NCBI GenBank assembly: GCA_934370915.1
Contig: CAKRNI010000005.1
Location: forward strand, 1 to 32,636
Source of the DNA: an uncultured Lachnospiraceae bacterium
GTDB taxonomy: Bacteria; Bacillota; Clostridia; Lachnospirales; Lachnospiraceae
DNA: 32,636 nt
Direction of reading: 5' to 3'
Shown here: positions 4,724 through 30,552 of the stretch, piece after piece
Layout of the letters: each line of letters begins with the position of its first letter
Position numbering within the stretch: position 1 is the stretch's first letter
The notes under the pieces: generated by a model
What the model saw: the letters and a program-made list of their open reading frames with translations, nothing else
Told to the model about the DNA's origin: nothing
The model's database searches: none
Program-made: the position numbers and the translations under genes

Positions 4724-5719
4724 CTATGAGATCCATGCTCCTGCTGTCCCGTCGGATCCGTTTCCGAAGCGGTACACAGTTCCGTCAATGGTACGCTCTC
4801 CGGTCACCATCGCTCCTGATCCGTCCATATAATACCAGGTTCCATATGGATCCTGATACCAGCCGGTCACCATATAGCTGTTCTCATCGAACCGGTACCA
4901 GATTCCGCCGATCTCCTTCCACTGATCCTTACAATAGGACAATCCCCGGGCACTCGTGACGTAACGCCACTTCCCGGTTCCATCCTCCTGGATCCATGCG
5001 CCGGAGAATGTCTGTCCGGAATCACTTTTTCCATCCTCGGAGACAAACCGCGTTCCGGTATAGACCATTCCCGGTCCCTCGACGGTCTTGCTCTTTTTTC
5101 CGTCGCTGTTGACCGCTGTTACCATAAACGTATATAACTTTCCTTCCTTCATCTCAGAAGAAAAGTCTTTGGTGCAGCCCTTTAAGGTCTCGTTTGTTTT
5201 TTTCTTTCCATTCTCGTATAACGTCACGCTGTAGCTGGATGCCTTATAAGCAGATGCCCACTTTGCTGTGCCGCTTCCCGACCATGCAGGATCAAGCGGA
5301 ACTCCGATCCGTTTGTTCATTGGGATCATATCCACGTAAAGCCATACTTCCGAAGTTCCTTCATACTCTCTCGATACATAGCGGTAAACATCAGAACCTT
5401 TGAGATCAAAATAGGAACTTCCCTTCTTACGAAATTCATATCCGCTGTCTGCAACCAGTCCGATCTGGACACGGGCACAGTAGGAAGAATTCCAGTTATC
5501 GATATCTACTCCGTTTATGACCTCGCATCCTGTCACCGTGTAGCCTTTTCCCATATTTGTGACCTTGACCTCACCGGTCTTTGTCAGTTGGGATTCCAGC
5601 TTCAGCTTTACCCGGTCGATCTTTACAGGATCTCCTTCTGCCGCCCAGGCGCCTGACGCGAAGGTCAGGCACATGAGAAGCGTCAGGAAGAAAATTTTCA
5701 GAAATTTCAAATGTTTCAT
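4724..5719 (-). CDS. Secreted cell-wall-binding protein with Fn3-like domain, last gene of the motor operon
   Basis: 331 aa. Signal peptide in residues 1-26 (cleavage near GAWAAEG). A beta-rich domain covers about 30-135 (KIDRVKLKLESQ...), a fibronectin type III-like domain about 140-222 (WASAYKASSYSVTLYENGKK, LYTFMVTAVNSDGKKS), and choline-binding-type repeats about 238-331 (GKWRYVTS, GIWYRFDENSYMVTGWYQDPYGTWYYMDGSG). The start codon is only six bases from the stop of the 3532-aa gene, and the ribosome binding site GGGAGGAAA lies inside that gene's last codons, so co-translation with the giant protein is likely. It could tie the surface assembly to the cell wall. It is related to the 263-aa protein at 2297-3088, which lacks the Fn3-like domain. 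No catalytic site is visible. Confidence 0.85.
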   Translation of the reverse strand: MKHLKFLKIFFLTLLMCLTFASGAWAAEGDPVKIDRVKLKLESQLTKTGEVKVTNMGKGYTVTGCEVINGVDIDNWNSSYCARVQIGLVADSGYEFRKKGSSYFDLKGSDVYRYVSREYEGTSEVWLYVDMIPMNKRIGVPLDPAWSGSGTAKWASAYKASSYSVTLYENGKKKTNETLKGCTKDFSSEMKEGKLYTFMVTAVNSDGKKSKTVEGPGMVYTGTRFVSEDGKSDSGQTFSGAWIQEDGTGKWRYVTSARGLSYCKDQWKEIGGIWYRFDENSYMVTGWYQDPYGTWYYMDGSGAMVTGERTIDGTVYRFGNGSDGTAGAWIS

Positions 5720-5725
5720 GAATGT

Positions 5726-8700
5726 TTATTTCCTCCCTTCCCTCTTTTTAAGCAGAAGACCAAGGGATAAGAGAATTCCCATTGCGGAGAACGCGCCGAA
5801 GATCATGATTCCATATTTCTTGTCCTCCATGAAATCCTTGCTCTTAAGCTGCGTCTGATCCGCGATCAGACCCTGGGAAGCCATCTCCTTCACCTTGCTG
5901 TCCACACTCGTGAGACTGTCTCCGGTCTGGCTCAGATAGTCCTTTGCGGTGTAGATCCGGTAAGATCCGTCTGCCGGGTTGTAAACTGTGATCAGCTTCT
6001 TTTCTGTGACCGCACTGGATTTCAGATCACTTCCGGCTGTTTCAGACACCGCCGCAGTCTCGGATCCGGCTGTAGTCTCAGCTTCCGCTGCGTTTGCAAC
6101 TGCCTCCGTCTCCTTTGACTCCGCAGAACCGGAAGTTCCGGAACTCTCGTCTGTCGTATCCTGATCCGAAGTCAGCTGATCCGAAATCAAGTCATCAGAA
6201 GCTTTCTCTCCATAAACCTTCTCTCCGGAAGCCACGCTCTCAGAATCCGCTGCGCTGTCTTTCTCAGAACCGTTCTTCTCCGCATGGGACTTGTCCGCAG
6301 TTTCCTGTTTCTCTGTGAGATCACCCAGAGATGCAGCCGCATCCTTCTCCGTAAGATCGCGGTTCTCCGTCTGATCATTTGCAGCGTTTTCATTCTTCGA
6401 TGTGCCTGATCCATCCTGCACTGTCTTCTCCTTCAGATCCTTCGATGCATCCGCATCGTTCTCACCGGAGGAATTCTTCTTCGTCACGGAATCTTTCTCG
6501 TCTTTTGACTCGTCCGTGCCGTTTGTCTTTTCTTTCTTAGACTCAGATGTCTCGTCCTTCGATGTGCTCACACCGTTCTTCTCGTCATCTGCTGTCTTTG
6601 AGAACAGACTCTTTACCGCATCCACGATGCTGTTCCTGGATTTCTCCCTGTCACCGGTCTGCGTGGAATCGTCTTTCTCATTATGATCGGAACTGCTGTT
6701 CTTCTTATCCGGGTCATCGGAATCAGAATCTGCCGCGCTTCCGTTTCCTCCTGCTTTTCCGGAAGTTCCAGCTGCCTCTCCGCCCTCTGATGCCGTTCCT
6801 GTATAGGAAAGGATATCATCAAGGCTTCCGAGACGTCCCGTGCTCAGGTTCGTCATGAGGTTTGCAGATGCCGCATAGCCGGAATTGTTCATTCCAAACC
6901 AGCTTCCGAGATAGCTTTCCAGATACTGCCCCGCGTAATCCGCAAGGGAAAGATCCGTTCCGTTCTCCCAGGAATCTGCTTCCTCAAGAGTAAGCTCCGT
7001 TCCTGTCAGATAGTTGAATGCAAATACCTTTCCATCCTCATAACGCCCGATGGCAATATGGCTGTCATCGTGCATATTGTCGGCAAGTTCCACAATACCA
7101 CGGTTCGTGAAACCTTCCGGAAGGTGAATGGATTCATTCAGGTCATGAAGCAGTCCGTCTGTTCCGAGAACGGTCAGGTACTGGCTGTCCTGATAGGTAT
7201 CGGCAAGTACCGCGCCGTATACCATATCCGGATCCGGCTCAAGACCAAAGAGGGTTCCGTTCTTCACATAGGCGAGACGGTCAAGATCCTCCCCGTCATA
7301 GTGAATGAACTGATGGTAAACAGAAAGCTTCTCTCCATCGTAGGTGAACTCACATACCGCCTTTGGCTCCTCCCACTGAATATCCGTGAAATCGCAGTGC
7401 GATACGACACTTCCGGACTCCACATTCCAGATATCACCGTTTAAGTCAAGGGCCTGTCCATTTCTGAGATTTAAGAAGCTTCCCGCGATGGACTTGCCGG
7501 ACGCGCTCCGGATACCGGAGTTTGTCAGGTAATACTGGTCTCCCTTCCATGCCATGACAGAGGACGCAAGATCCTGTGCCAGAATATCATAGGTCTGTGT
7601 GAATCCGATCTCCGGTGCCGATAAGGTCACAACCAGCGGTGTGCTGTAATTGTACGGCATCGTGTAGACTCTCTCGGTGGTGTTGTCCACACGGAGAACC
7701 TCACCGGAACCGTCCGCCACAGACATCGCAGCCCCAACCACATCAGAAGAAAGCTCTAACGTGATGGACGCCGGACCGGATGCGGATACCCAGAGGTACT
7801 GTTCATCCGTAATGTCGCGGAGCGACAGTGTGGATGTCGTTGCGCCGGTCGGGATCGCAAGCCCCCAGTAACCCATCGTTCCATCCTGATAGTTGGATAA
7901 CATTGTGTTACCGCCCGTCGTATTCTTCGGATTCGGATACATCTCCTCACTGGTAGTTACATACGGGAATCTCGCCGCACGATTTGCTTTCTTGTCAGGC
8001 TGAATATGCATATAAACCCAGCGATTCTTATTAAATCCAAGAACCGTCTGGTATAACGCCGCCCGCTCAAATACTTCCGCATCTGTTACAAAATACTGGT
8101 ATGGAGCAATTGCTTTCGGATCGTCTTTTACTGTCGCATCAGTTTTATTAACCGGAAGCTCCAGTTTTGCATATGCCTTTCCTGTGCCTGTCCACTCGGT
8201 AATATTATTCCAGAGAGGAATATCGTTTATCTTGATGCCACCCCACACAACAGAGCTTGGGGCTGTGCTTCCTACGGTTTGAATTTCCCCTATAGATTTA
8301 CTTGGTTTCCATGATGACATATCCGTGAACTCAGAGTTATCCAGATGGAAATATCCCCACACCGTACTGCTGTTGTCATTATTTCCATTTACGTCTGCTG
8401 TCAGGATAATTTTGTTATATTGCTCACTGGAAAGATAATCATGACCCTGATCAATGATCTCGCCGCTGGAGTCCTTTCGCGGATTCCCGTTCGTCAGTCG
8501 TCCCACAAAGGAGCCTGCCTGTTCCACAGCCTTTACGGTTCCGCCGAGAACTGCTTCCTTTACATATGCGTGCGGATTCGAGTTTCCTCCTTTCGCATCA
8601 TAATAGTAATCGTACAAAATTCCTGCAAAAGAACCTGCGCCTGATCCGGTTGCCTCAACTTCCGCGTCACAGTTGATCCAGGAATACTTTCCTCCATAAG

Positions 8701-11700
8701 TAATTCCGACAATTCCGCCGACACCGGTCGCTCCGGTGACCTTCGTATTGCTGACAGTAAATCTGGAATCATCAGTAGATGTACCGTCTGTTTTTCCCAC
8801 AATGCCTCCGACACCGCTGGAAGACGATCCGGTACCTCTGATCACACAGCCCGTGACTGCATCACTGTATACACTCATCTGATAGTCTGTGGATCCACCG
8901 ATAATTCCGCCGATATTGTCTCCGCTGCCCTCGACTGTTGTATTTTCGACCGCGCATCTGACCGTGGAATTATTTCGCGATCCTGTGATTCCTCCAACAT
9001 TGGATGTACCACTGATGACGGAATCTCTTACAATAGAGTTTTGCACACTTACCGAACTCGAAACGATTCCTCCGGTATTCTCTTTGGCTCCATTAACATA
9101 ACAATGATCAACGACACACTGTGACGCTGTATTATACCAGGTGGTTGCACCAAGAACACCAGCAGTCCTCTCCGAGCCACTAACGTAAGCATACTGTACT
9201 GTGACATTTTTTAAAGATGCGGAAACCGTAACACTCTCACTGTACTGGGAACCGACGCCGCCAATGTAATTACGGCCGGCAATGTACACCGGATATTCTT
9301 CTTCACCGACTGTAAGATTCTCAGATGTAACACACTGTGCCAAACGACCGGTAATACCGCCCACATAGTCATAGCCATTGACATACGCACCCTTAATAGA
9401 AAGATCTGTGAGGGCTGTCTTAGACGCACCGATAATTCCTCCGACATTGTTCGAGTTCGGAGCTGATACGCGATATGTAAAGCTGCTTTCTGCCGGTTCC
9501 TTCGCAGGCAGAGTATTATTCACGGGATTTCCCTCCGCAGTAATCTGACTTACATTTCCTGTGTTATATCCGATCAGTCCGCCGACGTAGATTGACGTTG
9601 CAGATACCGATACATCAATGTCCTTCAGCTGTACATTCTTGACGTTTCCGGTATTTGTTCCGATCATACCAACATTAGTTGCCTGATAGCCCACTAATTT
9701 AATATTTTCAAACTCACAGTTTTCAATCTTGCCCTGATTTGTGGCAATCAGTCCAAAGTTTGTACCGCTCCTTGTACCGTTGTTGATTGTAATATCCGTG
9801 AATTTCAGATTGCTCATCTCTCCCGCAATCACTGTAAACATAGACTCAGCGGCACTGGCGGTGTCATACTGTTTACCACCAAAGGTGATCGTATACTTTC
9901 CACCACCCAGCTTCGTTTCTCCGATCAGGGAATTGATCTTCAGTCCCATCGGAATATTCTTGTTTGCCACGTGATCTGAAAGAACAATATCTCCGGCGAT
10001 CCGGAAGTTTTCGAAGTTCTGGCCCGCCTCATTCATAGCCTCGGTCCACTCCTCCGCGTTATGGATCGTTCGCGCAATGACGGTACCGCTCTTCGCCTGA
10101 ATCTGGATATCAAGACGCCTCTCAATATCGCCTTTTTTGAATACGGCAACTGCCGGATATACGGACTGATATTTTTTGAGCAGCACTCCGCGGTAAATCA
10201 GGGTCAAACGTTCCGGAATCGAATTGTCTGTTATCTGGCTGAAATCCATTCCGTCGCATACAATCCGGTCTAACAGGAAGCCATTTCCTCCGTTTTCCGC
10301 GATAACCTCCACCGTATAAGCGCCGCTGTATTCTGAGATCTCGGCGGATGTCACTTTCAGATTTTCATCCGGAAGCTCGATCGCCGTCTGCTCCGGCAGG
10401 ATCTCTCCATCAACATTTTTCAGCTGCGGCATATAACTGTCTTCCACGTGGTATCCGCTGGTTCCCTCAATGTCAAAGCTGTTTCCGAGACGTCCACGGT
10501 TACGATAGAGTCCCTGCTGCGCCAGTTCTCCCTCCATAGAGAGATATGTAGCAGTCAGTTCCTTATCCGACACAGCCACACCCACAAGCTGACCGCTGTA
10601 GGCAGCTCCGTTCGTCACAGCGCAGCTGACCGTACTTCCGTTTGTATTTCCGTAAATACGGCCGATATTGGATCCGCTGCCGGAAATATTTCCGATGGAG
10701 AGTAGATTGTCCAGAGAGATTGAGGAATTGGCAATTCCAAGGATTCCGCCCGCATCACCGGCAGTGCTGGTGATATTCACATAGGACATTCCCTGACTGA
10801 CATCCGCACTTCCGGCACCCTCAATACCTCCGGTACCTCCAAAAGCTGTGGTGATTGTTCCATGGGTGTACACATTGGAAAGCGTTCCATTTGTTTCGAC
10901 ACAACCCACAAGACCTCCAATTCCGTCAGCACGGGCTCCCTCCTGAGCTTTAATATTGATGTTGGAAGCATAGGAATTATAGATCTTGATTCCTTTTCCA
11001 TATCCCAGGAGTCCTCCAACCGCCACGGCGTTGTTCCCGTTGGCCGCCGTCGTGATCGTCACATGCTCCGCCCGGCAGTCCTCCATCGTACTGTATTCCA
11101 GATAGGATACAAGACCGCCAACATGGGCCGGCATATCAGACAGCTTTACATCCGATATGCGAATATTTTTTAAAACACTGTTATTCGTCACTCTTCCGAA
11201 AATTCCAGCCTCTGAAGACTTCACCAGATTGTCTGTTACGCCATGGGTAAGGAATTCAATATTCTCGAAATTGAGGTTCTTGATCTCTCCGCCCGTTACC
11301 GTCTGGATCAAAAAGGAACCGACACCACTGATATTCCGGATCGTGTGTCCACCACCGTCGAGTTTTCCAGTAAACGTAGCGGTGGACGGGCTGATCTGAA
11401 GCACACCGATGGACATTCCGTCAAAGTCAAGATCCTTCACGAGAAGGTAGTTGTCTCCCGGATTTGCGTCGATGGATTTCCAGTCATCATAACTTGCGAT
11501 CTCGTGGTAGAAGTTTATCTCCAGATACTTTCCATCATTACCGCAATCCACCGATGTCGTGTCATGAGTCGTCTCATTGATCTCATAGGTAAGTCTGGAG
11601 TAGAGATATTTCGACGAGAATGTCTGAGGATCGCTGACCTTCGCCCGGACAACGTACATGCCGTTTTCAAGTCCCTGACTGAGGATTTCCGTTGTGAGTC

Positions 11701-14700
11701 CGCTGAATTCGATCCTGTTTATTTTCTGAAGATTGTTGCTTCTAAAGTAGAGAAGAACCTCTGCCTCCTTATTATTTGGCTGCGATACGACCTTGCTGCT
11801 TACATACTCAGGAATGTTCGCACCCGGGGCTGCCGGAAGTGCCACATTCTCCTGCTGCATGGACATAGACTCGGACATCTGTACCTTCGGATAATATCCG
11901 CTTGCAACCTGTCCATCAATTTCAAAGGAATCCGGGGACAGAAACACATTCTCATACCATATTGTATCCCAGAGTCTCTGGACAACAGTACTCTGTCCGG
12001 CATCCTTTGGGTAGGTTGCGTCCGTATACTGGGAGATATGGTACAGATTGCTGGTGTTAATTGATTTCTCCTTATATCCTATAGTAGCACCGCCTCTGTT
12101 ATAGACCTGATAAGCGCTCTGTTTTCCGTTCGCATCGTAGGAAAAATAGAAGATATCGCCGACAAAGAAACTGTTCCGGACAGTTCCATCCGCGCTGCCC
12201 ACAATTCCGCCGGTATAATCCATCGTGTAGTTATAATCCCCCTTGTAGTTTACATTATATTCGACAACCGCGTTATTGAGGACAAATACATCCTCGATCA
12301 CTCCTGTAGCCGAATTACTGTACGCAATCGCGCCATAAACTCCTGAAGCCGTATGGATATCTCCGCCATACACAAGGCTTTCGAGAACTACATTCTTGCC
12401 GTATACCGCTCCCTTGCGGATCGTTCCGTTGTTCGTTGCCGTTACGATTCCGAAGCTGGATCTTGCATGAAGCTCTTTTTCAATCTTTACCGAGAAATTC
12501 TCGATCACACCGGACTTCTCGTTGACGAACGTCATAAGACCGGTATACCAGTTCGGCTGTGATCTTCCCATATTGATCTTCATCACAATATTCCGGATCG
12601 TTCCGTAGTTTCGGTTTACAAGTCCTGCCGACTGGGTAAATGGTGACGATGGATCCCTGCGATAGTCAAACACAATATTTTCGATTACACCGGTACTCGT
12701 CAAACTATTAAACACCGGTCCATAGCTGGTTTCCTCAGGGAACGAAAGTGTATGTCCCTGGAAATCAAGAGTTCCCGAGAATATTTTATTGTAGGAATTA
12801 CCCTTAGCATCCTTAGGTTCATAGCCCGTTCTCTCAATATCCGCTACAACCACAAACTTTCCATTCGGATTTGCCATCAGCTTATCCCGGAGTTCCTGCC
12901 AGTTTGAGATCGTATCCATACCGGTCTCTGTCGTGAAGTTTACACGTGCGAGAACGATATCCTCATATCCGCGGACACTGATCAGAAGGTCCACCTCGTA
13001 GGTGGAGAATCCATTACAGTTGAAGATCTCCTCCAGGGTAACGCCCTCTTCACCCGCTGTTTCGTACGGATAAGCGTAGGGGATCCGCTTAATCTCATCA
13101 AGCTTTGTGCTGTCAACGTCCATACCGTCCGCTCCCTTTAAGAGAAGCGTGTAGGTGCCGTTTTTCAGCTCCTGTTTTCTATCGGTGAGCTGTACGGTAA
13201 CGGATGCTTTCCAGCCGGAACCGGATTCATCGATGGACTTCATATCCAGAGAGCCCGTAATTCCCTCACCGGTCTTAAAGAAGACCTTATCCGGGAATGT
13301 ATAATTCTGCTCGTTCTTTCCGTTTTCATAATATACGTTGTAGTTCTGTGCCGTAAACTCGATGCGGTACTCGTGGTCCATCTTCAGGTTGTTGAACCGG
13401 AGACTCTCATATTCCGTATTGACCTTAATGGTTCTTGTCTCCACCAGGCTCGCCTCGGATACCGAGTAGAGCTTTACGGTCACCGCTCCCTTATCGATGG
13501 CTCCGTCCGGATCATCAAAGTAAAAGTGATAGAGCTCCACGAAATCAGAAAGCGTGAATACGCCGTCATGGCGGAATCCCGCCGTCTGTTTCAGCGTCCG
13601 GATCTGAAGTGTATTCGTCGGTGCCTGAACCTTGTACTCGCTTCCGCCCTGAGAAGCGACAGCTCCAACAGACACCGTATAATTTGTCATGGAGTCAAAG
13701 GGATTATCCTGTCCCTTTCCTTCCTGAAACTGGAACTCCGCTCTCCATCCGCTTATAAAGAGACTCCATGCGTCTGTCACATCTTCCGGCGCTGTTCCGG
13801 ATATTACGACCTTCGGCACGGTGGCATCAAGCGTATCATGGTTCTGGATCACAATACTTGTACTTCCCGCCTCTACAGAGACCTTTTCCAGCTCGGACCG
13901 GGATAAAATCGTTTCATTTTCCCAGGTCTTGCTGTCCGACGTAATCTGAACCGGGAAGCGGTCCATCAGCGTCAGAAGCCCTTCCATCGTCTTCGTTGTG
14001 TCAACCTGCATGCCAATGGTAAACGAGGAATCCGTGATATCGGATGAATCAAGATTTACGTGCGCGTTTCCGAGAAGGCTGATCTGTGCTGTAAACATGG
14101 AAAGACGTCCAATTCTTGTATTCCTGCACCAGTTTTTTGTATTCTTATCGTTCAGTTCGTAATCTGCCCGCACAATGACATAAAAGGAAGTTCCGGACGG
14201 AAGATTTGTAATCGTAAACTCGTTGGTCGTTCCGTCTGTAGATACTGCCCTGCGGTACTTTGTGTTGATTCCGTCACCGGTCTCATCAAATGCCGGAACA
14301 TCATCTCCCTCTGTATTTACAATATAGAGATAGCAGTTCTCCATATCCGCATGATCCGGATTTGACACCTGAACGGTAATGGACTGGGCACCTACCGTGT
14401 TTGCAGTCTCACGGATCGATGCTGTCGGCGCTACTTTACAGGTGTGGGTCGTTCCCTCTGTCACACTGTCAGAAGTCAGCTCAAATTTGTTTCTAAAACG
14501 GTCAAGAACCGACACTGTATAGTGGTATGTTTTATTGGAATCGAAACCTTCCTTGGAAAGCCAGTTTGCCGCAATTCCTCTCTTGATGTTCCGGACCGCG
14601 CTTCCTCCGATGTTGTAATCTTCCCCATCGATGGAAACTTCAATTCGACCGATGTAGGAAATCGCTGAGATTCTGCCGTCAGATGTGGGGACATCCTCGG

Positions 14701-17575: not shown

Positions 17576-17579
17576 ACTC

Positions 17580-17831
17580 TTATTCTCCCGTGATCAGAAG
17601 TTCAAATTCGTTATGGCTGTGCATATAGTATCCGGTGATATTCTCAAAGGAAGCCGTTGTGTCACCGCTTACGAGTTCCACGCTTCCCCTGATCTCGCCG
17701 ATCACCGGCATATAGTCTTTCAGGATCAGAAGGTTGTAATTGCTGCTCACGATCCTTATCATATCAACGTTTTCCAGGACCCGGAGACCTTCTTTAAAGC
17801 CGAGGATCCTGGCTGTGATCATTCCCTCCAA
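17580..17831 (-). CDS. atpC: F1 epsilon-like subunit, beta-sandwich only
   Basis: 83 aa, against about 130-140 for normal epsilon. It matches the N-terminal beta-sandwich that contacts gamma and the c ring: VSSNYNLLILKDYMPVIGEIRGSVELV aligns with the G-x-x-G-I-x-x-G-H-A-P-L-L-T-x-x-x-P-G segment, and ASFENITGYYMHSHNEFELLI with the F-x-x-x-G-G-x-x-E-V segment. The C-terminal helix-turn-helix, which inhibits ATP hydrolysis in bacterial enzymes, is missing. The start is probably the TTG at 17829-17831, because GGAGG stands seven bases before it; the ATG three codons later has its purine run too close. Gaps are 16 bases to beta and 4 to the next gene. Loss of the inhibitory part fits an enzyme meant to hydrolyse ATP freely. 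Confidence 0.82.
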   Translation of the reverse strand: MEGMITARILGFKEGLRVLENVDMIRIVSSNYNLLILKDYMPVIGEIRGSVELVSGDTTASFENITGYYMHSHNEFELLITGE

Positions 17832-17847: not shown

Positions 17848-19992
<2,145 letters not shown>

Positions 19993-20006
<14 letters not shown>

Positions 20007-21339: not shown

Positions 21340-21351
21340 TTTTGCTTCTCC

Positions 21352-22119
21352 TTATATACTGTAATCGAACATCTGGTTTCCGCGGACAACACGGATTCCC
21401 TCACAGATCCCCTCATCATAGATCGTCTCGATCTGATGATCCTTTCCGGCTGCTAAACGGTCTCCCGTATAGATCTTCGTAACATCGCCGTAGAGATCTT
21501 TGAACACCGCCGCAAATTCCCGGAATCCACAGGCATCCATCACGCCTTTTTCATCCAGATACTGTTCCAGAATCTTTGTCTCGTCTTTATCCAGACATTC
21601 TCTGAGGATCTGTTCCTGCTCTGCCGGATCTAAGGTAGAGAGGCTGCAGGCTGTATCAGAAGAAAGATCAACGAGGATCCGTCCTGCCGCTTTTCCGGCC
21701 CAGGCCATCGGCCCCGGATCCATAGAGAGGATCCCGGACACCTCTGCACTCCGGTCGACCGCGAACTCACCGCGGATCTTCCGGTAGGCTTCACCGAAAT
21801 CGGACTGCTTTTCAGAGGACGGCGGGAGCTCTAAACCGGATGCCGCCGGGATTTCCACAGCCGCTTTTGCAGGCTGGTTCTCTGCCGCTCCCTCTTTTTT
21901 CATAAGGTTCACTCCGTAAAGCTTCTCCTGTTCTTCCAGCTCTTCCAGTTTCTTTTTCTTTTCCTCATACAGCCGGTCAAACACAGAAAGTTCCCGCATA
22001 TAGCGTCCGTTGACCTGCCCCGTTACCCGATCCGATACCTGCCTGATTACAAGAAACATGAATCCGATCATAAGCAGGAGAACCACCAGGACCGCCAGAA
22101 ATATCATGACATACCGCAT
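21352..22119 (-). CDS. Fused b-delta peripheral stalk subunit of the F-type motor
   Basis: 255 aa. One N-terminal transmembrane helix (about 4-26), then a charged coiled coil (about 40-72: RLYEEKKKKLEELEEQEKL), an Ala/Pro/Glu-rich linker (about 76-106), and a helical domain ending in TKIYTGDRLAAGKDHQIETIYDEGICEGIRVVRGNQMFDYSI. That end matches the delta C-terminal pattern (I-x-G-[GI]-x-V-x-x-G-x-x-x-x-D-x-S). The single-helix-plus-coiled-coil start is b-like. It lies between c and alpha, exactly where atpF and atpH stand in normal operons. b-delta fusions are known, for example in mycobacteria, so the architecture has precedent. There is no second b gene. The coiled coil is short for a stalk reaching the top of F1 (normal b has about 100 helical residues), which is odd. 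Identity is inferred from pattern and position. Confidence 0.75.
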   Translation of the reverse strand: MRYVMIFLAVLVVLLLMIGFMFLVIRQVSDRVTGQVNGRYMRELSVFDRLYEEKKKKLEELEEQEKLYGVNLMKKEGAAENQPAKAAVEIPAASGLELPPSSEKQSDFGEAYRKIRGEFAVDRSAEVSGILSMDPGPMAWAGKAAGRILVDLSSDTACSLSTLDPAEQEQILRECLDKDETKILEQYLDEKGVMDACGFREFAAVFKDLYGDVTKIYTGDRLAAGKDHQIETIYDEGICEGIRVVRGNQMFDYSI

Positions 22120-22140
22120 GGTCTTGCACCTGCCTTTCGA

Positions 22141-22389
<249 letters not shown>

Positions 22390-22408
22390 TCATTTCCTCC
22401 GTTTATTT

Positions 22409-22434: not shown

Positions 22435-22467
22435 CGCTTTTCTTCTCAACCTGATAATCAGTCGTTA

Positions 22468-24330
22468 TCATTCCCCCGCAGTTGTCTCCTCCTGCATCCG
22501 GATGATCACCGGCTTGTCCGCCGGAATCGTCTTGAGGAGAGGCTCGTCACTCTGAAGAGAGAGCTCGTTGTCTGTGCTGGAAGTTGTATCTTCTGTCTCC
22601 TCTATCTCTGTCTGTTCCTCACTCTCCGGAACATCCGTGAAAACTTCTCGTTCACTCACCGCAGAGTTTCCGGATGTCTGTCCGCCTGAAGAAGAACTTC
22701 CTGAAGAGTCAGAGTTCTTGTAGTACGGGTTTCTCGCAGTCGCCGTCTTTAATACGGTTCCTCTGCTCGCGTCCGCGTCAAAAATCTGAAGTTCCATACG
22801 GTATGTCTTTATACTCTCATCCGGTTGAATCGTAATCCAGTTAGAGTATTCTCCGTTCGCAGCTTCCTCGACATCAACTGCCTCCCTGACAATCACATCA
22901 TTGTTTCCATCGTATAAAACGACCTGAGCGCTATATGCCGGATAGTCATCGTTGATGCTCACCGCATATTCGATACCTTCTGTCGTCACGGAGCGGATCG
23001 CGAAATCACAGTTGACCGCCTTTGTCCAGACACGCATCTCATCCATAACCTTAAAGGAACCTGCGTCATCATCGCTGTCATCATATTCCGGATAGTAGCC
23101 GATCACTACCCGGTATTTGGTTTTCGGCAACAGCCCCTCTGTAAATCGATAGTCCGTGTCATCCGGGCTTACAAATGTATGGGCGATATAGTTGTCATTG
23201 TTAGAATTGTTCGATGCCGCATAAACCCGGATCTCGATGACTCCATAATATCCGAAGGGATCAGAGATTGCGAAGGACGTATCAATATAGGAAGAATCAC
23301 TGGTCACCTGTTTTAACTGCATGGACTGACGTCCTAAGATCGCCTGATCTGATCCAGTATTATCCAGGTTACCACCGTCTCCGCCTCGTCCACCGGATCC
23401 ACCGTTTCCACCAGAGCCTCCTATTCCGCCGTCTCCGCCGTTTCCACCGGAGCCACCAGTACCACCGCTTCCACCGGAGCCTCCATTTCCTCCGATACCG
23501 CCAGTTCCTCCTGTACCGCCGTTTCCACCGATACCGCCATCTCCTCCTTTACCGCCGATACCGCCAGTTCCACCGCTTCCGCCGGAGCCTCCGATACCAC
23601 CGTTTCCGCCGTCTCCTCCACGGATTGTGTAGGAGTAAAATTTCTGTCCAAGATTATACGGATCCTCAACGACCTTTAGGGAGCCTAAGACTTGTCCAAG
23701 GTCCACAGTCCGCTCCAGTCCGAGATCCAGTGACTCGTCCTTTACGGTAAAGGTGATATCCCCGGACTTAAAAGACTCCGCATCAAGTATTTTGAGATCC
23801 AGAAGATCATTCATTACATGTACATTTCCTGAGCGGTCTCCCACCATATATGCCCAGCCTTCCGCCTGAAGGCTGCCGGTGTTATCCGTAATTCCGCTTC
23901 CGGTCATCAGGTATTTTCTGTCCGTCAGTTTGTAGAATGCCGGCTCCGCAAGATCAGTGATCTCATATCTGGAATCCAGCCGTTCCACGGTTCCATCAGG
24001 ATAGAACCTGTAACCACCGCCGTAGACCGTCAGGGATTTTGATCCCGGATCGTAGGCAACCGTCTGGCGTCCGAGGGCATATTCCTTTTTATTATCATCC
24101 ACCAGATTATAGCCTTTATTCCAGCTCCGGTATATTTTTCCTTCCGAACCAATCTCAATTTTCGCGTAGCTGTTGTCATACACGGTTCCCCCGGCAGGTA
24201 CCGCGTATTTTTCAGCCTGAGTATTGGCCGCGCTGACGACCCCCACGCTGAATCCCGCAACGGCTGTTGTCACAGCCGCTGCAAAGACCGCGAAGGACCG
24301 CTTCGCTTTTCCTGTTAATGCTCGTTTCAT
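22468..24330 (-). CDS. Secreted stalked surface protein with G-G-X repeat and Fn3-like domains
   Basis: 620 aa. Signal peptide 1-35 (basic start, Ala/Val core, cleavage near VVSAAN). About 40-230 is the shared membrane-proximal beta domain (YAVPAGGTVYDNSYAKIEI, DRKYLMTGSGITDNTG, GWAYMVGDRSGNVHVMNDL). Residues 238-321 are 28 uninterrupted G-G-X triplets with X mostly Ser, Asn, Thr, Ile and Asp. About 345-435 and 440-535 are two Fn3-like domains, the first with the family-style LLPKTKYRVVIGYY. About 538-620 is a Ser/Gly then Glu/Thr-rich tail. There is no C-terminal membrane helix or sorting signal, so attachment must be through the N-terminus or partners. It sits between the 2067-aa gene (18-base gap) and the c gene, in the place where an a-subunit gene would normally stand. 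GGGGCGAATAGGG precedes the ATG. Confidence 0.88.
   Translation of the reverse strand: MKRALTGKAKRSFAVFAAAVTTAVAGFSVGVVSAANTQAEKYAVPAGGTVYDNSYAKIEIGSEGKIYRSWNKGYNLVDDNKKEYALGRQTVAYDPGSKSLTVYGGGYRFYPDGTVERLDSRYEITDLAEPAFYKLTDRKYLMTGSGITDNTGSLQAEGWAYMVGDRSGNVHVMNDLLDLKILDAESFKSGDITFTVKDESLDLGLERTVDLGQVLGSLKVVEDPYNLGQKFYSYTIRGGDGGNGGIGGSGGSGGTGGIGGKGGDGGIGGNGGTGGTGGIGGNGGSGGSGGTGGSGGNGGDGGIGGSGGNGGSGGRGGDGGNLDNTGSDQAILGRQSMQLKQVTSDSSYIDTSFAISDPFGYYGVIEIRVYAASNNSNNDNYIAHTFVSPDDTDYRFTEGLLPKTKYRVVIGYYPEYDDSDDDAGSFKVMDEMRVWTKAVNCDFAIRSVTTEGIEYAVSINDDYPAYSAQVVLYDGNNDVIVREAVDVEEAANGEYSNWITIQPDESIKTYRMELQIFDADASRGTVLKTATARNPYYKNSDSSGSSSSGGQTSGNSAVSEREVFTDVPESEEQTEIEETEDTTSSTDNELSLQSDEPLLKTIPADKPVIIRMQEETTAGE
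23368..23619 (-). repeat. 28 G-G-X triplets in the 620-aa protein
   Basis: 84 codons with a strict three-residue period, two Gly then one variable residue, no break. The DNA is a degenerate GGN-GGN-NNN repeat and may slip. In proteins such runs can pack as polyglycine II helices, as in phage S16 adhesin; the assignment here is by pattern only. Confidence 0.95.
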
Positions 24331-24348
24331 CCCTATTCGCCCCTTTTA

Positions 24349-27300
24349 TTACGGAGTATACGTAATCGTATCTTTATAGATCTGCGATCCATCTTCAGCC
24401 AGGAACTGGATTGTAATCGCGTACTGGATATCAGCCTCCGACAATTCGATCGGAACTGTCGTCGTGTACGTCGATGTCGTTCCCTTTTGTGTAAACAGGC
24501 CTCCGGTCGTTCCCGCAGAAAGAGTCTTACTGTCGATCTGCGCGTTACCCTTGCTGTCAACCCAGTTCACCGTCGTCTGAACAGTTCTGATCTTGTCCAG
24601 ATTATATCCGTTGTATACAAGGATTTCGATCTGGTTTCCGGCATTTCTTCTCACCTGGATGCTGTCGAATCGTCCCTGCCATGTATCCAGAGTCTTTTCT
24701 TCCGCCTCATAAGCTGCAAGACCTGCCAGTTCTTCAGGTGTCTTACCCTCTACATCATTCTTTGTTACACCTTTAACATTTCCCGCATTCGCCAGATCTT
24801 TTTTCGCGTAAATGCGCAAATGATAATTATGATTTGCCTCAAGATTTCCTGTCTGCACCTTCTGGATTCCATCTACAACATTGAAAGCCCATGTGCAGTT
24901 TTCTACCGCTGCATTGTTGCTGTCATAAAGTACCATGACATAAGTGCCTTCAGCGAATGCCTTGTTCGGATCCTGAGGTGTCACCTGAATCTCAAGACCA
25001 TTACCGTTGTTGATCGGTCTGGACTCTACATAGAAGTTCGGGATAATCAGTTTTTCCCAGTCGATCTCCGCGTAGTAGTCTGTTGAACCTGTGACGGATT
25101 TACCGTCGCTGTCTGTCGCATGGATATACAGATGATACATATATCCCGGCTCCATCAGAGTGTTCGTCGAGAGATCGATTTTCTCCGTCATCTGAGAGCT
25201 GTAACTCCACAGACGGTCATTCACATCGAGCCACTGGGTACCATTCCAGTGGTATCCCATCGCTGCCATAATCGCGTCATGGGATGCCACGGTCTGCTCC
25301 TGACCATTTACAAGTTTTTTCAGCTCATAAGTGATCGTATAGCCATCCAGCAGGGAAAGCCCGTAGGAAATCGTGACATATTTGTCGGAATAGCTGTTGT
25401 AGACGATATCTGATGTTTTAATTCCATCAATCGTCATTCCGTCCATCGTCTTGATCGTATAGACCGCTGGTCCCGCGCTGTCATTATCAATCAGCTCTGT
25501 CAGTGCATCTGTTCCGACTGGTGTTCCCATTACACGGATGATATACTCCGTATTCTGGCTCAGTCCTGTAATACCAACGGAATAACTCTGTGCATCATCA
25601 CTTTCGATTGTAATAGTGTCTGAAAAGACTTCTTCTTCGTTATCTTTTCTGAATACCTTTACGGTTATCTTACCTTCTTCCAGAAGATCCTTACTGTTCG
25701 TCCGGAAAGAGATCGTCGATGTTGTCAGCGCCGTGCGGGTTGCCACACTGCTGATGGTCGGATTCAGGGTTCCGATTACAACCTGCATCGGATTGTTATT
25801 TACATCCTTCGTGTACGTGACTTTTTTCTCGACTTTGAGAATCGGCCGTACATTCTCTCCGTCTCCGACCGCCTTGTAGCCGGACGTTCCCGGGCGGAGC
25901 TGCAGAACCATCTTTTTCAGGGCTTCATTCTTCTGATCTGTTGTATAATTTCCCGGGAAATCGTTTCTCAGGTTTTCAAATTTGATAAGAAGGTCTTCGT
26001 CCTCCTTCTCAGAGCCTGTCGGCCATAATGTCGAATCACTTGTCACATCTGATACGCTGTACCGCGCCAGCCACGGTGTATCCACGGAAGTCGGTGAACT
26101 CAGTACAGAGCTTCCATTCGCATTGACCGCATATCGCCACTGCATGTACTGGGTCGACTCACCGGTTTCCAGATTTTCAACGAGATAACTTCCTGTGTTT
26201 CCATCTGTGCTGCCACTGGAAACCGGTTGATTGGTCAGATAATACTGTCCGCCATATCCAGAGTCATAGCTAACCTCCACAGTAAATGTAACTGTCTGAC
26301 CCGATGCTGCGCCTTTCAGAAGTGAAAGGTCATAGCCGATATATTTGTTGTTTTGTGCTGTCGTTCCGGTGAATCTCCATGCCGTAGTTGTATATGAAGA
26401 TGCCGATGCGCCGGTACCTGTTGTTCCGGTAATCTTCACACTGCTGATACGATTTAAATCAACGTCATTATTGGTACCCGGTATAAACTCAAAACGAACT
26501 GTGTTTGCTCCCGCCACCTGAGACACCTTGATATTCAGGTCATTCTGTACAGCTGTAGGCTCCAGGGTCTGTTTGTACATATGCGTAGTCAACGCCAGCT
26601 GTGATGAGACTGGATGGTCTCCAGTCTCCAAAACATCCTTTGGATCGTAGAGGTTCTGATTCATCTTCAGTGTATAGGTCTGGGTTCCGTTGTTCAGCTG
26701 CATCTTCATTGCCTTGTATTCTCCAGTATTAGAGACATGCTCCAGCATGTTTGATGCCTGGGCAATTACGGTTGCGCCCTGGAATACGCTCTTCAATGTC
26801 TGGGTATTGGTAATATCCGTGAATTTTAACGGAGCTGCCCCATCCACATCATCGTACTTGTAGTTCCACTGAACTCCATCGCTTTCAATATTCTCAATGT
26901 ACATCTTCACATCCGGGGACTGCTTCGGAGTTTCCACAACTCCGGAGGATAAGAGGGTTCCCTTACTGAAGCTTCCCGTTACATCGTTCGGGAATACATA
27001 TGTTGAATCATTTCGGAAGGTAAGTCTCGCCTTGTAGGCAAATACATAGTGCCATCCTCTTGTTACAAGGGACTCCTTTGTTGTAAAGATCGATACCGTT
27101 GCGTTCGAAGGATTGTTGAATTTCGAAGCCGCGCCGCCTGTCTCGTTTCCTGTGATTTCCGCCTCATCCATTACGGTCCATTTGGATCTCACATCCTGCA
27201 TTGTGGTTGTGGCTCCATGAATCGGATCCATGAAGAAAATATTGATCGATGGAAGCGACTTATCATTCTTACTAACCGGAAGTGTAAACTTCAGCTTTGG

Positions 27301-30300
27301 AGAATCATAAGGAACCTTGGATGCATCCGGGTTTTGCTCATTTGGCTTTGTCTTTCCCCAGTACGGCCATTCAGTCGGATCATTGCCTTTATCAGATGAA
27401 TCGTCCTGACTATATCCCAGGATATCTTTTTCTGTCATTACATAATAAGTAACAGAGTTTGCAAGTCCACCGTTATTGTTGTAGTTCGCATGGAGGTTAT
27501 ATCCCACGATCGTATCGTCAGACAGATCTGGCTGCTTTGTTCCCTGTAAATATTTGTTTGCCTCACCGTTTGTGATCGGTGTCGCTGTTACACCGGAAGT
27601 CAGCGGGCTTGGGAAATCCGGAACTTTTTCGTCGTACTTGATCGAGTAATTTGTAACACTTCCGCTCGCAAACGGGATCTGGTTCTCATAATCGCTCAGT
27701 TTTTGTGCAGAATCTGTCGGGTACGTATAGTTGTAGGTGTAGTCGTATACGCCTAAAATCGCGATTGTATAATTCGATGCCGTCAGCTCTGAGGAAGAAA
27801 CCCCTAATGTCTGGGCATTGATCTTTAATTCCGATCCTTCCACTCGTCCATTTGCGCCCCAGTACTGCTTTACGAAGCTTGCACTGTACGGATCACTGTT
27901 GTCAGTGCTGTCCACGAATACGTCCATGACCTGACCCACAACATCTCCTGTGGTATTTGCGCCTGCGTAGAGTGCCGCGCGGACAACCTTCGCAGATTTC
28001 ACCGAGAGACCAGCGGTATCTGTCGTATCTGTCGCTTCACCGAAGTATACCTTGACACCAACGTTTGCTGTGGCATCCGGTACTACCTGAACGAAGATCG
28101 AATCATGTTTCTCGGTGCTGACAACGCAGTCTCCGAGGTACGTTTTCTCATACTGGTTTGCAGAATTATTCCATACATATCCCCATGCAGTGATTCGGTA
28201 GCTTGTCTCTGTCTTCAAACCTTTCATCAGGATCGGAATATTGTATTTATTTTCTCCATCCGTCTTGTTGGACTCCATTGTGGATAGATCAATCTTCATT
28301 TCAGATCTGTAGTTTCCGGCACTCTCAATAATAACAGAAAGCGGATACTCCTGAGATGTAAAGATCGTTCCGTATTCCTTCGGATCGATCGTGAGGATAC
28401 CGTCGAGTGTCGTCTTCTTATCGACTTTGTGGTCCTTCGTATCATTATTCCATGTGTAGTACATGGAAACTTCACCCTTGGAAGACATCATGAATCCCTC
28501 GGACGGAGAGCTGACAATCTCCGCGTTCTTCTCGTTATCAAAGTACGTCATGGTAACGCGCACAACATACTGATGGCCTTTCTCGATCGTACCGTTTCCA
28601 TCCTTTGTCGGGCCAATGTAAAGAGAAACACCCGTATTCTTTGTTGATGTCAGCGTCTCGACGAGAGCCCCGTTATTTACAGGATCAAGGATCTCCCATT
28701 TGTATCCTGTAATCGCGTTATCGTCATCGCGGACCTTTGCAGTCAGATCAAAGTATGTCTGGCTGTTCGCATAGCCTGCCGGCTTTCCATCAAATTCCGG
28801 AGTTTTCTTTAGTGTCTTCCATGTCTGGGTAACTCCGCTGCTCTTCCATACACCACCGACATAAGACTCCAGCTTTACTGTGTATGTCTTATTGCTCTCC
28901 AACAGCTGTGGTCCATTGTTTGGTGCGTTGAAATCAGTCCGCAGTGTCGTATCGAGAGTGAGCCGGTTGTCATTGTCGGCAAACTCGATCTCACTGATCT
29001 CTTTCTTTAATACTTCTTTTCCCAGTGAATCATAGATCGTGATTCTTGCATTTATCGCCTCAGAGTAATCCATGCGCTCCAAGCTTACGATAAATCCGTC
29101 TTCCTTCGCGTATACTTTATCGAGGTTTAATCCCGAGCTGTCTGTGTAGAAGGTACGGTTGATATAATCTCTGCTGCCAGCGATGTTCTTTAAGAGGTAT
29201 CCGGATTTAACCACAAAACGGTATTCCTGATCCGGGCTTAAGTTGGAACATGATACGGTGTAGGTCTCCTCGTCAGCAAAGTTGATCTTTGTGCTGTCGA
29301 TCTCACCTGCAACCTCAAGTTCCACCGGCTGACCGTTTTTATCGTAAATATAAACGCTTCCTTCCTGGCCATTTAAGACCTCATCCACATCGTTTACCGT
29401 GAAGGTCGCGTTGAGGGTTCCGGCTGTCAGAACAAAGCTTGTGATCTGGAAGGATGCCTGTGCCTGAGTATCCGGGTTGTTGAGACTTCCGTCTGTACCC
29501 TTCTTACCTCCTGAGCCATTCGCACCGCTCTGGCCGTTCGCGCCGGTACTACCGTCGGAGCCGTCGTCACCGCTGCTTCCTTCGTCGCCGTCATTTCCTT
29601 CGTTACCGTCGTCACCGTCGTCGCCGTCCTGACCAATCTTTCCTTCTTTTCCTTCGTCACCTTGTTCTCCGGCTGCTCCTGTCTCCCCGGCCGCGCCTGT
29701 CTCTCCTGCTGCGCCTTCTTCACCGGACTGTCCGTCGACAACGTCAAACTTAAATTCCGGTGCTACCCAGTCTTCCGCGGACTGCACCTGGATATTGTCA
29801 TCCGCGTTTAAGAGCATCTCCTGAAATGTCATACGGCTGTTTCCCTGGGCATCAGAAATAATCTGGTCACCGAAGTCATAGCGGACTCCATTGCCCAGAG
29901 TAATATAAGTTCCATCTGCAACGACCTGATACTGATGGTTCTCATCCACAAGACAGATAATTCCCTGTTCCGGGTATTCTGCCTCTATCCATCCGTCAAC
30001 TGCCATCTCCTCGCCGGAGGGCAGGTGTAAGGACGCGCCGTTTGAGTAGAGCATAAAGCGGTCATCGCCGATCTTCCAGATAAAGTTGTTGAAGGAGATC
30101 TCATTCCCGTTGTTCTCAACGGAGAATCCACCGTTTGAAGCTGCAATAACGGTATTCTTTTCTACTCCATAATGGTTTACAAGTCCTGTGTTGATATCAT
30201 CCAGATTTACAAGGACTCCATCGGACAGCGCACTGGCAGAACCATCCGCATAGTGCAGGAAGCTTTCTTTACCAACGCTGCGCTTTGTTCCTTCAACATC

Positions 30301-30552
30301 GTGAAAGACAAGCTCGTTCGGAAATTTTCCTCTTACCTTTGTTCCTCCGGAAAAATAGTACGATTCCGGGGCCGTTTCTTCACTCCCACTTTTCTCGCTT
30401 TGCGTACTTTGCCAGGCTGATGATAGAACATAGCCATCGGCTGCCATCGAGGATTCTCTCGCTGACGACATAAAGATCCCGGCTGATAATGTTCCTGCGG
30501 CGGCAAACAGCGTTGTTGCGCCGATCGCAATCAGTTTTCCGTATTTCGACAT
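24349..30552 (-). CDS. Giant 2067-aa secreted protein with collagen-like stalk and many Fn3-like domains
   Basis: First gene of the operon. Residues 1-38 are a signal or anchor segment (MSKYGKLIAIGATTLFAAAG). About 65-262 is the shared membrane-proximal beta domain (FIWKIGDDRFMLYSNGASLHL, GTYITLGNGVRYDFGD). Residues 274-357 are 28 G-X-Y triplets rich in Asp, Glu, Asn and Ala with almost no Pro. From about 362 to the end runs a long series of Fn3/Ig-like domains; repeated marks are L-x-x-x-x-x-Y-x-[VI]-x-[VA] strands (LSPDQEYRFVVKSGY, LSQNTEYIIRVMG, LEANHNYHLRIYAK). No C-terminal membrane helix, sorting signal or wall-binding repeat is seen. AGAGGTGAG precedes the ATG. Fn3 chains are typical of extended adhesive fibres; no catalytic domain was recognised. 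The protein could form the outermost part of the surface assembly. Confidence 0.9.
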   Translation of the reverse strand: MSKYGKLIAIGATTLFAAAGTLSAGIFMSSARESSMAADGYVLSSAWQSTQSEKSGSEETAPESYYFSGGTKVRGKFPNELVFHDVEGTKRSVGKESFLHYADGSASALSDGVLVNLDDINTGLVNHYGVEKNTVIAASNGGFSVENNGNEISFNNFIWKIGDDRFMLYSNGASLHLPSGEEMAVDGWIEAEYPEQGIICLVDENHQYQVVADGTYITLGNGVRYDFGDQIISDAQGNSRMTFQEMLLNADDNIQVQSAEDWVAPEFKFDVVDGQSGEEGAAGETGAAGETGAAGEQGDEGKEGKIGQDGDDGDDGNEGNDGDEGSSGDDGSDGSTGANGQSGANGSGGKKGTDGSLNNPDTQAQASFQITSFVLTAGTLNATFTVNDVDEVLNGQEGSVYIYDKNGQPVELEVAGEIDSTKINFADEETYTVSCSNLSPDQEYRFVVKSGYLLKNIAGSRDYINRTFYTDSSGLNLDKVYAKEDGFIVSLERMDYSEAINARITIYDSLGKEVLKKEISEIEFADNDNRLTLDTTLRTDFNAPNNGPQLLESNKTYTVKLESYVGGVWKSSGVTQTWKTLKKTPEFDGKPAGYANSQTYFDLTAKVRDDDNAITGYKWEILDPVNNGALVETLTSTKNTGVSLYIGPTKDGNGTIEKGHQYVVRVTMTYFDNEKNAEIVSSPSEGFMMSSKGEVSMYYTWNNDTKDHKVDKKTTLDGILTIDPKEYGTIFTSQEYPLSVIIESAGNYRSEMKIDLSTMESNKTDGENKYNIPILMKGLKTETSYRITAWGYVWNNSANQYEKTYLGDCVVSTEKHDSIFVQVVPDATANVGVKVYFGEATDTTDTAGLSVKSAKVVRAALYAGANTTGDVVGQVMDVFVDSTDNSDPYSASFVKQYWGANGRVEGSELKINAQTLGVSSSELTASNYTIAILGVYDYTYNYTYPTDSAQKLSDYENQIPFASGSVTNYSIKYDEKVPDFPSPLTSGVTATPITNGEANKYLQGTKQPDLSDDTIVGYNLHANYNNNGGLANSVTYYVMTEKDILGYSQDDSSDKGNDPTEWPYWGKTKPNEQNPDASKVPYDSPKLKFTLPVSKNDKSLPSINIFFMDPIHGATTTMQDVRSKWTVMDEAEITGNETGGAASKFNNPSNATVSIFTTKESLVTRGWHYVFAYKARLTFRNDSTYVFPNDVTGSFSKGTLLSSGVVETPKQSPDVKMYIENIESDGVQWNYKYDDVDGAAPLKFTDITNTQTLKSVFQGATVIAQASNMLEHVSNTGEYKAMKMQLNNGTQTYTLKMNQNLYDPKDVLETGDHPVSSQLALTTHMYKQTLEPTAVQNDLNIKVSQVAGANTVRFEFIPGTNNDVDLNRISSVKITGTTGTGASASSYTTTAWRFTGTTAQNNKYIGYDLSLLKGAASGQTVTFTVEVSYDSGYGGQYYLTNQPVSSGSTDGNTGSYLVENLETGESTQYMQWRYAVNANGSSVLSSPTSVDTPWLARYSVSDVTSDSTLWPTGSEKEDEDLLIKFENLRNDFPGNYTTDQKNEALKKMVLQLRPGTSGYKAVGDGENVRPILKVEKKVTYTKDVNNNPMQVVIGTLNPTISSVATRTALTTSTISFRTNSKDLLEEGKITVKVFRKDNEEEVFSDTITIESDDAQSYSVGITGLSQNTEYIIRVMGTPVGTDALTELIDNDSAGPAVYTIKTMDGMTIDGIKTSDIVYNSYSDKYVTISYGLSLLDGYTITYELKKLVNGQEQTVASHDAIMAAMGYHWNGTQWLDVNDRLWSYSSQMTEKIDLSTNTLMEPGYMYHLYIHATDSDGKSVTGSTDYYAEIDWEKLIIPNFYVESRPINNGNGLEIQVTPQDPNKAFAEGTYVMVLYDSNNAAVENCTWAFNVVDGIQKVQTGNLEANHNYHLRIYAKKDLANAGNVKGVTKNDVEGKTPEELAGLAAYEAEEKTLDTWQGRFDSIQVRRNAGNQIEILVYNGYNLDKIRTVQTTVNWVDSKGNAQIDSKTLSAGTTGGLFTQKGTTSTYTTTVPIELSEADIQYAITIQFLAEDGSQIYKDTITYTP
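29482..29733 (-). repeat. 28 collagen-like G-X-Y triplets in the 2067-aa protein
   Basis: 84 codons with Gly at every third position, starting GQSGEEGAAGETGAAGET and ending GTDGSL. The middle is highly acidic (GDDGDDGNEGNDGDEG). Low Pro is typical of many bacterial collagen-like stalks. Its length is the same as the G-G-X run of the 620-aa protein. Confidence 0.95.

Follow-up and report, generated by a model that had tools for sequence, protein, structure and literature searches.

A conserved operon joining F1-type ATPase subunits to stalked giant surface proteins: a candidate ATP-driven rotary surface machine

Why should the subunits of an F1-type ATPase be encoded in one operon with giant stalked proteins of the cell surface? 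The question is raised by a 32,636-nt stretch of DNA from an uncultured Lachnospiraceae bacterium (contig CAKRNI010000005.1), the whole of which was analyzed and is called the window here. Twelve minus-strand open reading frames (ORFs) without internal stops follow one another in it at spacings of -14 to +81 bases and encode, in transcription order, proteins of 2067 and 620 amino acids (aa), a c subunit (81 aa), a b-delta fusion (255 aa), alpha (448 aa), gamma (260 aa) and beta (452 aa) subunits, and proteins of 83, 166, 243, 3532 and 331 aa. The membrane and surface proteins among them are referred to as S2067, S620, M166, S243 and G, the giant. An earlier note on this DNA had described twelve same-strand genes with small gaps and overlaps, which our ORF analysis bears out, and had proposed an ATP-driven rotary surface machine. 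Judged from sequence, we consider it probable, at roughly 60%, that the operon encodes such a machine: its c ring is free of the ion-binding acid, subunit a is not recognizable and stalked giants are linked to the motor genes, and therefore ATP is likely burned to turn or pull structures outside the cell.

Conservation and distribution of the operon

The operon is a real and conserved 11-gene unit. A search with alpha returned 3033 proteins at E≤1e-100, and the 120 listed among these are mostly 435 to 450 aa long; a profile scan of one genome per species then gave 150 confirmed places, the best 80 of which are the loci considered here. They come from Lachnospiraceae, other Clostridia, Bacilli, Erysipelotrichaceae, two Coriobacteriales and one Bifidobacterium, such that the carriers are scattered bacteria, many of them from animal guts. 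All 11 families stand in a single order in 38 of the 47 loci with enough flanking sequence. Among loci with room for the gene in question, the motor families are present almost throughout (b-delta 79/79, c 74/76, gamma 75/75, beta 72/72 and the 83-aa protein 71/71), and so are S2067 (47/51), M166 (64/66) and S243 (61/63), with a G- or S2067-type giant downstream in 55 of 62. The constant company of giants and of the 166- and 243-aa genes that the earlier note had wished to see checked is thus general but not invariable. F1 clusters lacking the surface proteins, which that note had named among the observations that would count against it, were sought; S620 is the immediate upstream neighbor in 59 of 61 loci with room, and the two loci without it there carry a 2067-type gene downstream. 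Because the nS620, nS2067 and nG profiles were built from genes chosen by position in these same loci, the counts for the surface families are partly circular, and a non-circular phmmer search with the window proteins themselves found S620 in 68, S2067 in 60, G in 57, S243 in 64 and M166 in 43 of the 80 loci. Two loci (L002 and L003) are rearranged: neither c nor S620 nor S243 accompanies the F1 genes, and M166 is directly followed by a 2067-type gene; the b-delta gene of L003 contains internal stops.

The operons of Kineothrix alysoides KNHs209 and Chakrabartyella piscis BP5G, both known from isolate genomes, comprise exactly eleven genes, with S2067-type proteins of 2180 and 2181 aa, S620-type proteins of 556 and 811 aa and giants of 3663 and 4044 aa, respectively, and by eye the neighboring ORFs look unrelated; the Kineothrix b gene falls in a gap of the ORF listing but is matched by the b profile. 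The 331-aa choline-binding-repeat protein, which the earlier note had counted with the operon, does belong to the tight gene series of the window, yet it is absent after the giant in these two operons, which were read through, and it therefore looks like a local addition. It was found by phmmer in none of the 80 loci, which says little because most loci end within the giant.

The unit was also approached from its surface side, with an S243 profile derived from the alpha-picked loci. In the order to which one Bacilli carrier belongs, it matched 17 of 193 genomes, the carrier itself counted; among 291 Clostridia genomes it matched 10 at E≤0.001, only two of which (the genome at the center of the set being one) matched beyond the first 105 profile positions; the system is therefore patchy. 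Among the 17 S243-picked genomes other than the centers, 16 hold an alpha of the clade, 11 of them beside S243 and five elsewhere (655-686 bits), or 14 of 15 without two probable repeats (L145 and L146, probably the same genomes as L078 and L064). S620 was found in 15 of these 17 regions by single-sequence phmmer. In two of the split operons (L152 and L156) a 218- to 219-aa protein with several membrane helices follows S243 and is perhaps a diverged M166 that the profile missed.

The motor genes and the ordinary ATP synthase

The motor looks capable of ATP hydrolysis but not of ion pumping. In length-filtered alignments of 73 betas and 67 alphas from the cluster, GGAGVGKT is kept in 72 betas and GERSREG in all 73, and SVSRLGG is kept in 66 alphas. 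Helix 2 of c is without Asp or Glu in 77 of 78 cluster members, whereas an acid is present in all ten ordinary c subunits of the same genomes; it is also missing from 10/10 c subunits of the S243-picked regions (two of them probable repeats), and the c subunits of carrier genomes without subunit a are likewise ion-blind. On these residues, the c ring cannot carry ions in the known way. The loop of c, which meets gamma in known enzymes, reads RNP in 78/78 members, and the glycine packing of helix 1 is retained. Subunit a (PF00119) was not found by Pfam among the window proteins, the other clusters not having been scanned protein by protein, and the M166 family compares with ordinary subunit a at a profile probability of just 0.5%. 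The kept ATPase motifs, the acid-free c and the unlikeness of M166 to subunit a therefore favor ATP hydrolysis without ion transport. Seven alpha frames of Bacilli type (L019, L061, L063, L023, L016, L025 and L046) have long C-terminal tails, reaching 609 to 1090 aa compared with about 440; the four tails read are acidic or repetitive, and two that were scanned contain no further Pfam domain.

The set of subunits named by the earlier note is recognizable for the most part. Pfam identifies c, alpha, beta and gamma, and the C-terminal end of the b-delta protein aligns with ordinary delta at 82.7% (E 9e-6; hhalign, family profile), but its b part reaches only 4.0% against ordinary b by hhalign, with a weak b-type Pfam match (6e-4), and the 83-aa family only 4.7% against ordinary epsilon, such that the epsilon label is a call by position. 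The window beta passes the NCBIfam atpD cut-off narrowly (467 versus 463 bits), four other cluster betas fall below it (444-459 bits) and the window alpha remains below the atpA cut-off (398 versus 484 bits).

The relation of the cluster to the ordinary ATP synthase bears directly on its function, since the earlier note had regarded a position as the only ATP synthase of the genome as incompatible with its proposal. Subunit a was found in 22 of 38 carrier genomes, and the ten cases read are ordinary operons outside the cluster, with a normal c; in a beta tree (73 rows after length filtering of the 80 loci and the window) the cluster clade is split from ten ordinary betas of the same genomes with support of 99/97. 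That position is thereby contradicted for these genomes but not for the other 16, in which subunit a was not found; 15 of the 16 also lack a V-type subunit I above the cut-off, assembly completeness not being established, and the cluster may therefore be their only F-type set. Two observations concern ordinary synthases. In Chakrabartyella the ordinary operon precedes the surface-machine operon by about 6 kb, both being on one strand, and its gamma and beta share a single 765-aa open frame (L082:4158-6455); a 71-kb plasmid record of Monoglobus pectinilyticus (L094, NZ_OY725726.1) holds a complete ordinary ATP synthase operon.

Surface proteins and their matched stalks

Both S620 and S2067 may carry a stalk with glycine at every third residue, and the lengths of the two stalks match. 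Both N-terminal ends could be read in 56 rows (the window and 55 of the 80 loci), from which L034, L041 and L048 were dropped for stops. In the remaining 53 rows, both proteins are stalked in 29 (4-69 triplets), neither in 21 and one only in three (8/0, 0/4 and 4/0), and the number of triplets in S620 correlates with that in S2067 with a Pearson coefficient of 0.99 (n=53). The window has 28/28 triplets, and other loci have 40/39, 33/33, 20/19 and 69/68; a difference of +1 is the commonest (15 of the 29 rows) and the largest is -8. The correlation persists in phylogenetic contrasts on the beta tree (r=0.94, 28 contrasts). S620 and S2067 are very likely parts of one shaft because their stalk lengths match in each locus, and the best explanation of the match is that the chains are obliged to lie side by side.

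The S620 stalks are nearly pure Gly-Gly-X, and those of S2067 are polar, acidic Gly-X-Y. The Gly-X-Y run of S2067 scores above the Pfam Collagen cut-off (41.7 versus 27.2 bits), and glycine at every third residue in both stalks is shared with collagen-like proteins and with polyglycine-II bundles. Collagen-like proteins are rich in proline at the X and Y positions, however, whereas proline per position amounts to at most 2.6% in 19 S2067 stalks and 0.7% in 34 S620 stalks, one partner is Gly-Gly-X and the length is paired with that of a second protein. The scarce proline and the Gly-Gly-X partner therefore fit a mixed glycine-rich bundle better than collagen. At the 0.31-nm rise per residue of a glycine helix, we infer that such a mixed shaft would be about 26 nm long in the window.

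The surface proteins are remotely related near the membrane as well: profile comparison links the juxtamembrane domains of S620, S2067, S243 and G in five of the six possible pairs (S620-S2067 98.8%, S243-S2067 95.2%, S243-G 91.0%, S2067-G 86.4% and S620-S243 71.6%). An N-terminal hydrophobic helix is present in nearly all of them (61/64, 43/45, 56/58 and 50/51), and the giants of the two complete relatives also end in a membrane helix, as that of the window does. In the scan of the window proteins, no Pfam match was obtained for the 83-, 166-, 243- and 620-aa proteins, and the giant contains no Pfam domain above cut-off. A stalkless S620 relative (L019) was modeled at a predicted local distance difference test score (pLDDT) of 89.9, and its domains match Fn3 by structure; of the GLUG/Fn3 description in the earlier note, the Fn3-like part is therefore upheld for the 620-aa family, and the GLUG part is not confirmed by the Pfam scan of the giant. 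M166 and S243 are fused in nine loci of one clade into proteins of 400 to 416 aa, matched by both profiles in seven and by the S243 profile alone in L030 and L037, and the model of one fusion (L036, pLDDT 89.3) has four membrane helices, a fifth helix and an all-beta ectodomain.

The coordinates of the genes are collected in Table 1. The flanks of the window (1294-2133, 2297-3088 and 32253-32621) hold a PD-(D/E)XK transposase-type gene and two further choline-binding-repeat proteins, and the operon therefore sits among wall-binding genes.

Table 1. Genes of the operon and features within them, in transcription order (positions in the window)
Feature	Position	Strand	Evidence
S2067, 2067-aa surface protein: N-terminal membrane helix, juxtamembrane beta domain, Gly-X-Y stalk, long ectodomain (predicted)	24349..30552	-	ORF; Pfam Collagen 9.8e-11
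Gly-X-Y stalk of S2067, residues 274-357, 28 triplets	29482..29733	-	matches S620 stalk
S620, 620-aa surface protein: conserved membrane helix, beta domain, Gly-Gly-X stalk, two Fn3-like domains (predicted)	22468..24330	-
Gly-Gly-X stalk of S620, residues 238-321, 28 triplets	23368..23619	-
c subunit without ion-binding carboxylate (T60 instead), RNP loop retained	22141..22386	-	PF00137 9e-9
b-delta fusion: N-terminal membrane helix, delta-like C end; predicted peripheral stalk	21352..22119	-
alpha subunit, C end short	19993..21339	-	PF00006 3e-75
gamma subunit, full-length shaft	19224..20006	-	PF00231 1.6e-24; end-to-end alignment with ordinary gamma
beta subunit, intact catalytic motifs	17848..19206	-	PF00006 1.8e-65
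83-aa protein at epsilon position	17580..17831	-	position; weak epsilon homology
M166, 166-aa membrane protein, predicted four helices; predicted partner of b and S243	17075..17575	-
S243, 243-aa single-helix protein, predicted extracellular all-beta domain	16347..17078	-
G, giant of 3532 aa, membrane helix at each end	5726..16324	-
C-terminal membrane helix of giant, residues 3506-3524	5753..5809	-
331-aa choline-binding-repeat protein, probably local extra	4724..5719	-	Pfam Choline_bind_3 3.6e-8

In two of the assemblies dropped from the stalk count (L041 and L048, uncultured Clostridia), CGG seems not to function as a triplet: S2067, S620 and gamma, and in L048 also M166 and S243, each break at a CGG, where the frame moves by +1. 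Long frames are recovered in 8/8 cases when CGGN is taken as a single step (for example, from 63 to 1777 aa), several of them at a Gly of the relatives, the recovered L041 gamma running to the end of its contig piece; no CGG occurs in those genes for c, b, alpha, beta and the 83-aa protein that were read in these loci. Over 382 kb of the L048 genome (L125-L144), a CGG after an open frame leads on in the +1 frame in 11 of 34 cases and in frame in one, whereas CGC and CGA lead on in frame in 36/71 and 102/198 cases, respectively. Against such a shift, 15 CGG lie inside long open frames of either strand in the same 382 kb. The anticodon CCG was not found among the tRNAs read, which are part of those of the genomes. 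The pattern would be accounted for by a vacant CGG at which reading shifts to GGN (Gly), or by a natural four-base codon.

Proposed mechanism, alternatives and relation to known systems

If the operon does encode a rotary surface machine, an F1-type motor, likely ATP-hydrolyzing, would turn a c ring without an ion-binding carboxylate: alpha3-beta3 would turn gamma, gamma would grip the ring through the invariant RNP loop, and the b-delta protein with the M166/S243 unit, and perhaps with the giant, would hold the motor as stator. S620 and S2067 may co-assemble as a shaft with the Gly-Gly-X chains inside and the charged Gly-X-Y chains outside, in which case the torque would go into a paired glycine-repeat stalk rather than into ion pumping. 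The shaft would carry the Fn3-rich ectodomains, torque or tension would pass through the wall, and the output might be adhesion, stirring or surface movement. Rotation, the rotor and stator assignment and the biological task are what we infer from the gene set, and the choice of which side is rotor is a guess. As to the proposal of the earlier note, the coupling of an F1 motor to surface proteins withstood those of its refuting observations that could be examined, but the export of the giants, which it had also offered, draws support from no finding.

Several observations weigh against the rotary surface machine or parts of it. Neither protein is stalked in 21 of the 53 rows, and a long shaft is therefore not essential; the transpeptidase found in 38/38 carrier genomes (at G033:C10:127357 the match lies within a 25,166-aa open frame, perhaps a run of N) means that the stalkless lineages are not wall-less, which removes a tempting reason for the absence. 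In three rows just one of the two proteins has a run, and that a short one, and the -8 of L010 leaves its stalks unequal by eight triplets. The juxtamembrane pair S620-G reaches just 12%, the uncleaved state of the N-terminal helices is suggested by a rough motif count, and the surface proteins could be the fixed part. One c subunit (L025) has an Asp one position off, and a recognized giant is missing downstream in seven of 62 loci with room. In one S243-picked genome (G466) a clade alpha was not found, and in three others of one order (G418, G481 and G441) the surface block is separate from the F1 block; these blocks are truly apart because unrelated-looking genes follow or precede S243, and one transcript is therefore not essential. 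In two further S243-picked genomes alpha lies on another contig, with a contig end near S243.

Four alternative explanations were considered, of which a conformational machine like mycoplasma X0/MIB-MIP deserves the most attention, although it too is unlikely. In this case F1 strokes would open, close or pull surface proteins, so as to capture, release or cleave, without continuous rotation. The logic of F1-like subunits, a membrane sector without a known ion path and linked large surface proteins is shared, and in one study the mycoplasma ATP-site mutant K152A resembled an ATPase deletion when antibody evasion was assayed by agglutination (PMC12994834). Gene content differs, however, as c and b-delta are kept and there is no 12-helix protein; the mycoplasma model scores the cluster betas no higher than it does ordinary ones (385-411 versus 424-459 bits), and neither a protease nor an immunoglobulin-binding domain was found by Pfam in the window proteins and four relatives. 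An energized machine for export or assembly of the giants, with the c ring as part of a channel, is improbable. F-type betas are kin to type III export ATPases, and the window beta does match these at 207 bits, with the giants as obvious cargo, but this is far under the SctN/FliI cut-off of 604.75 bits. A full gamma, a delta-like part and a c ring, none of which export systems are known to have, are retained here; the N-terminal hydrophobic helices of the surface proteins would suit ordinary Sec insertion.

We think it still more improbable that the F1 and c-ring base is a static scaffold, which would anchor the stalk or sense its tension without turning. Motor activity is itself predicted from sequence, and the alpha tails vary greatly in some Bacilli, but catalytic motifs are kept in nearly all members and a scaffold would not need them. 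The least probable alternative, to which we give hardly any weight, is a divergent F1Fo synthase or ion-pumping ATPase (a second synthase, or one like N-ATPase) that merely lies beside surface genes. The window beta passes atpD, the c, gamma and delta parts are recognizable, and 15 carriers may have no other F-type set, all of which would suit it. Yet the helix-2 acid of c is missing in 77/78 members and subunit a is unrecognized, the alt_F1F0 cut-offs of NCBIfam are far missed (beta 424 of 752, alpha 359 of 750.5 and gamma 29 of 282 bits), 22 of 38 genomes have a subunit a, in the ten cases read as part of an ordinary operon of its own, and the surface genes keep to the clade.

The rotary surface machine, if true, would be an F-type ATPase that keeps its ring, gives up ions and works mechanically outside walled cells. 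It would be a new kind of surface machine, open to testing in species with isolate genomes, and the matched stalk lengths offer a simple way of probing co-assembly by genetics. In Lachnospiraceae and their kin, several proteins labeled 'F0F1 ATP synthase subunit alpha' would then carry the name of the wrong machine, and the origin of mycoplasma F1-like motors, in which an ATP synthase meets an adhesin, would become directly testable. A bolder picture, which we put at somewhat under even odds, is that of a new class of rotary organelle, in which an ion-free F1 uses a dead c ring as a gear to spin or whip giant adhesive arms by means of an equal-length, two-protein glycine-helix drive shaft that takes the torque across the cell wall. 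It is equally tentative that the hosts of such an organelle, gut Bacillota and a few Actinomycetota, would provide an independent and more complete example of the step from ATP synthase to mycoplasma gliding motor.

A description of the operon was not found in the literature searched, and in the literature found an F-type motor working on outside structures is reported just for mycoplasmas; as a system it therefore appears new, although an F1 motor is in itself nothing new and the mycoplasma cases follow a closely similar principle. Compared with the bacterial F1Fo ATP synthase, the cluster has recognizable alpha, beta, gamma and c subunits and a delta part, but it is without a recognized subunit a or c carboxylate, its alpha is mostly about 440 aa and it adds four membrane and surface protein families. 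According to two studies, the Type 2 G1-ATPase drives gliding in Mycoplasma mobile and the Type 3 F1-like X0 serves the MIB-MIP antibody system (PMC11864180, PMC12994834), and a 2020 motility review gives an ATP synthase, altered and joined to an adhesin, as the presumed origin of M. mobile gliding, with no case of ATP synthase-derived gliding in walled bacteria named in the part available (PMC7004002). Type 2, as described there, resembles our cluster in coupling F1-like alpha, beta, gamma and epsilon to surface leg proteins in an ATP-driven manner (PMC11864180, PMC12994834); it differs in having a seven-gene cluster with a 12-helix protein, a stalk-like GliD without membrane segment and dimeric motors in chains, whereas the present cluster has a c ring, b-delta, the 166/243-aa unit and stalked giants. 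In the case of Type 3, F1-like genes likewise stand beside large surface proteins and the ATP site is needed for surface function, while the published account of the mycoplasma F1-like X0 cluster gives seven genes, a 12-helix membrane protein and no b homolog (PMC12994834), a layout for Types 2 and 3 that ours does not resemble. The NCBIfam models of Type 3 (MSC_0618, 393 of 570 bits; MSC_0619, 302 of 520 bits) and of gliding (glide_MMOB1670, 372 of 850 bits; glide_MMOB1660, 373 of 600 bits) are missed as well. The mycoplasma F1-like ATPases are thus the nearest known systems, sharing the logic of the operon with a different gene set and not joined to it by model scores.

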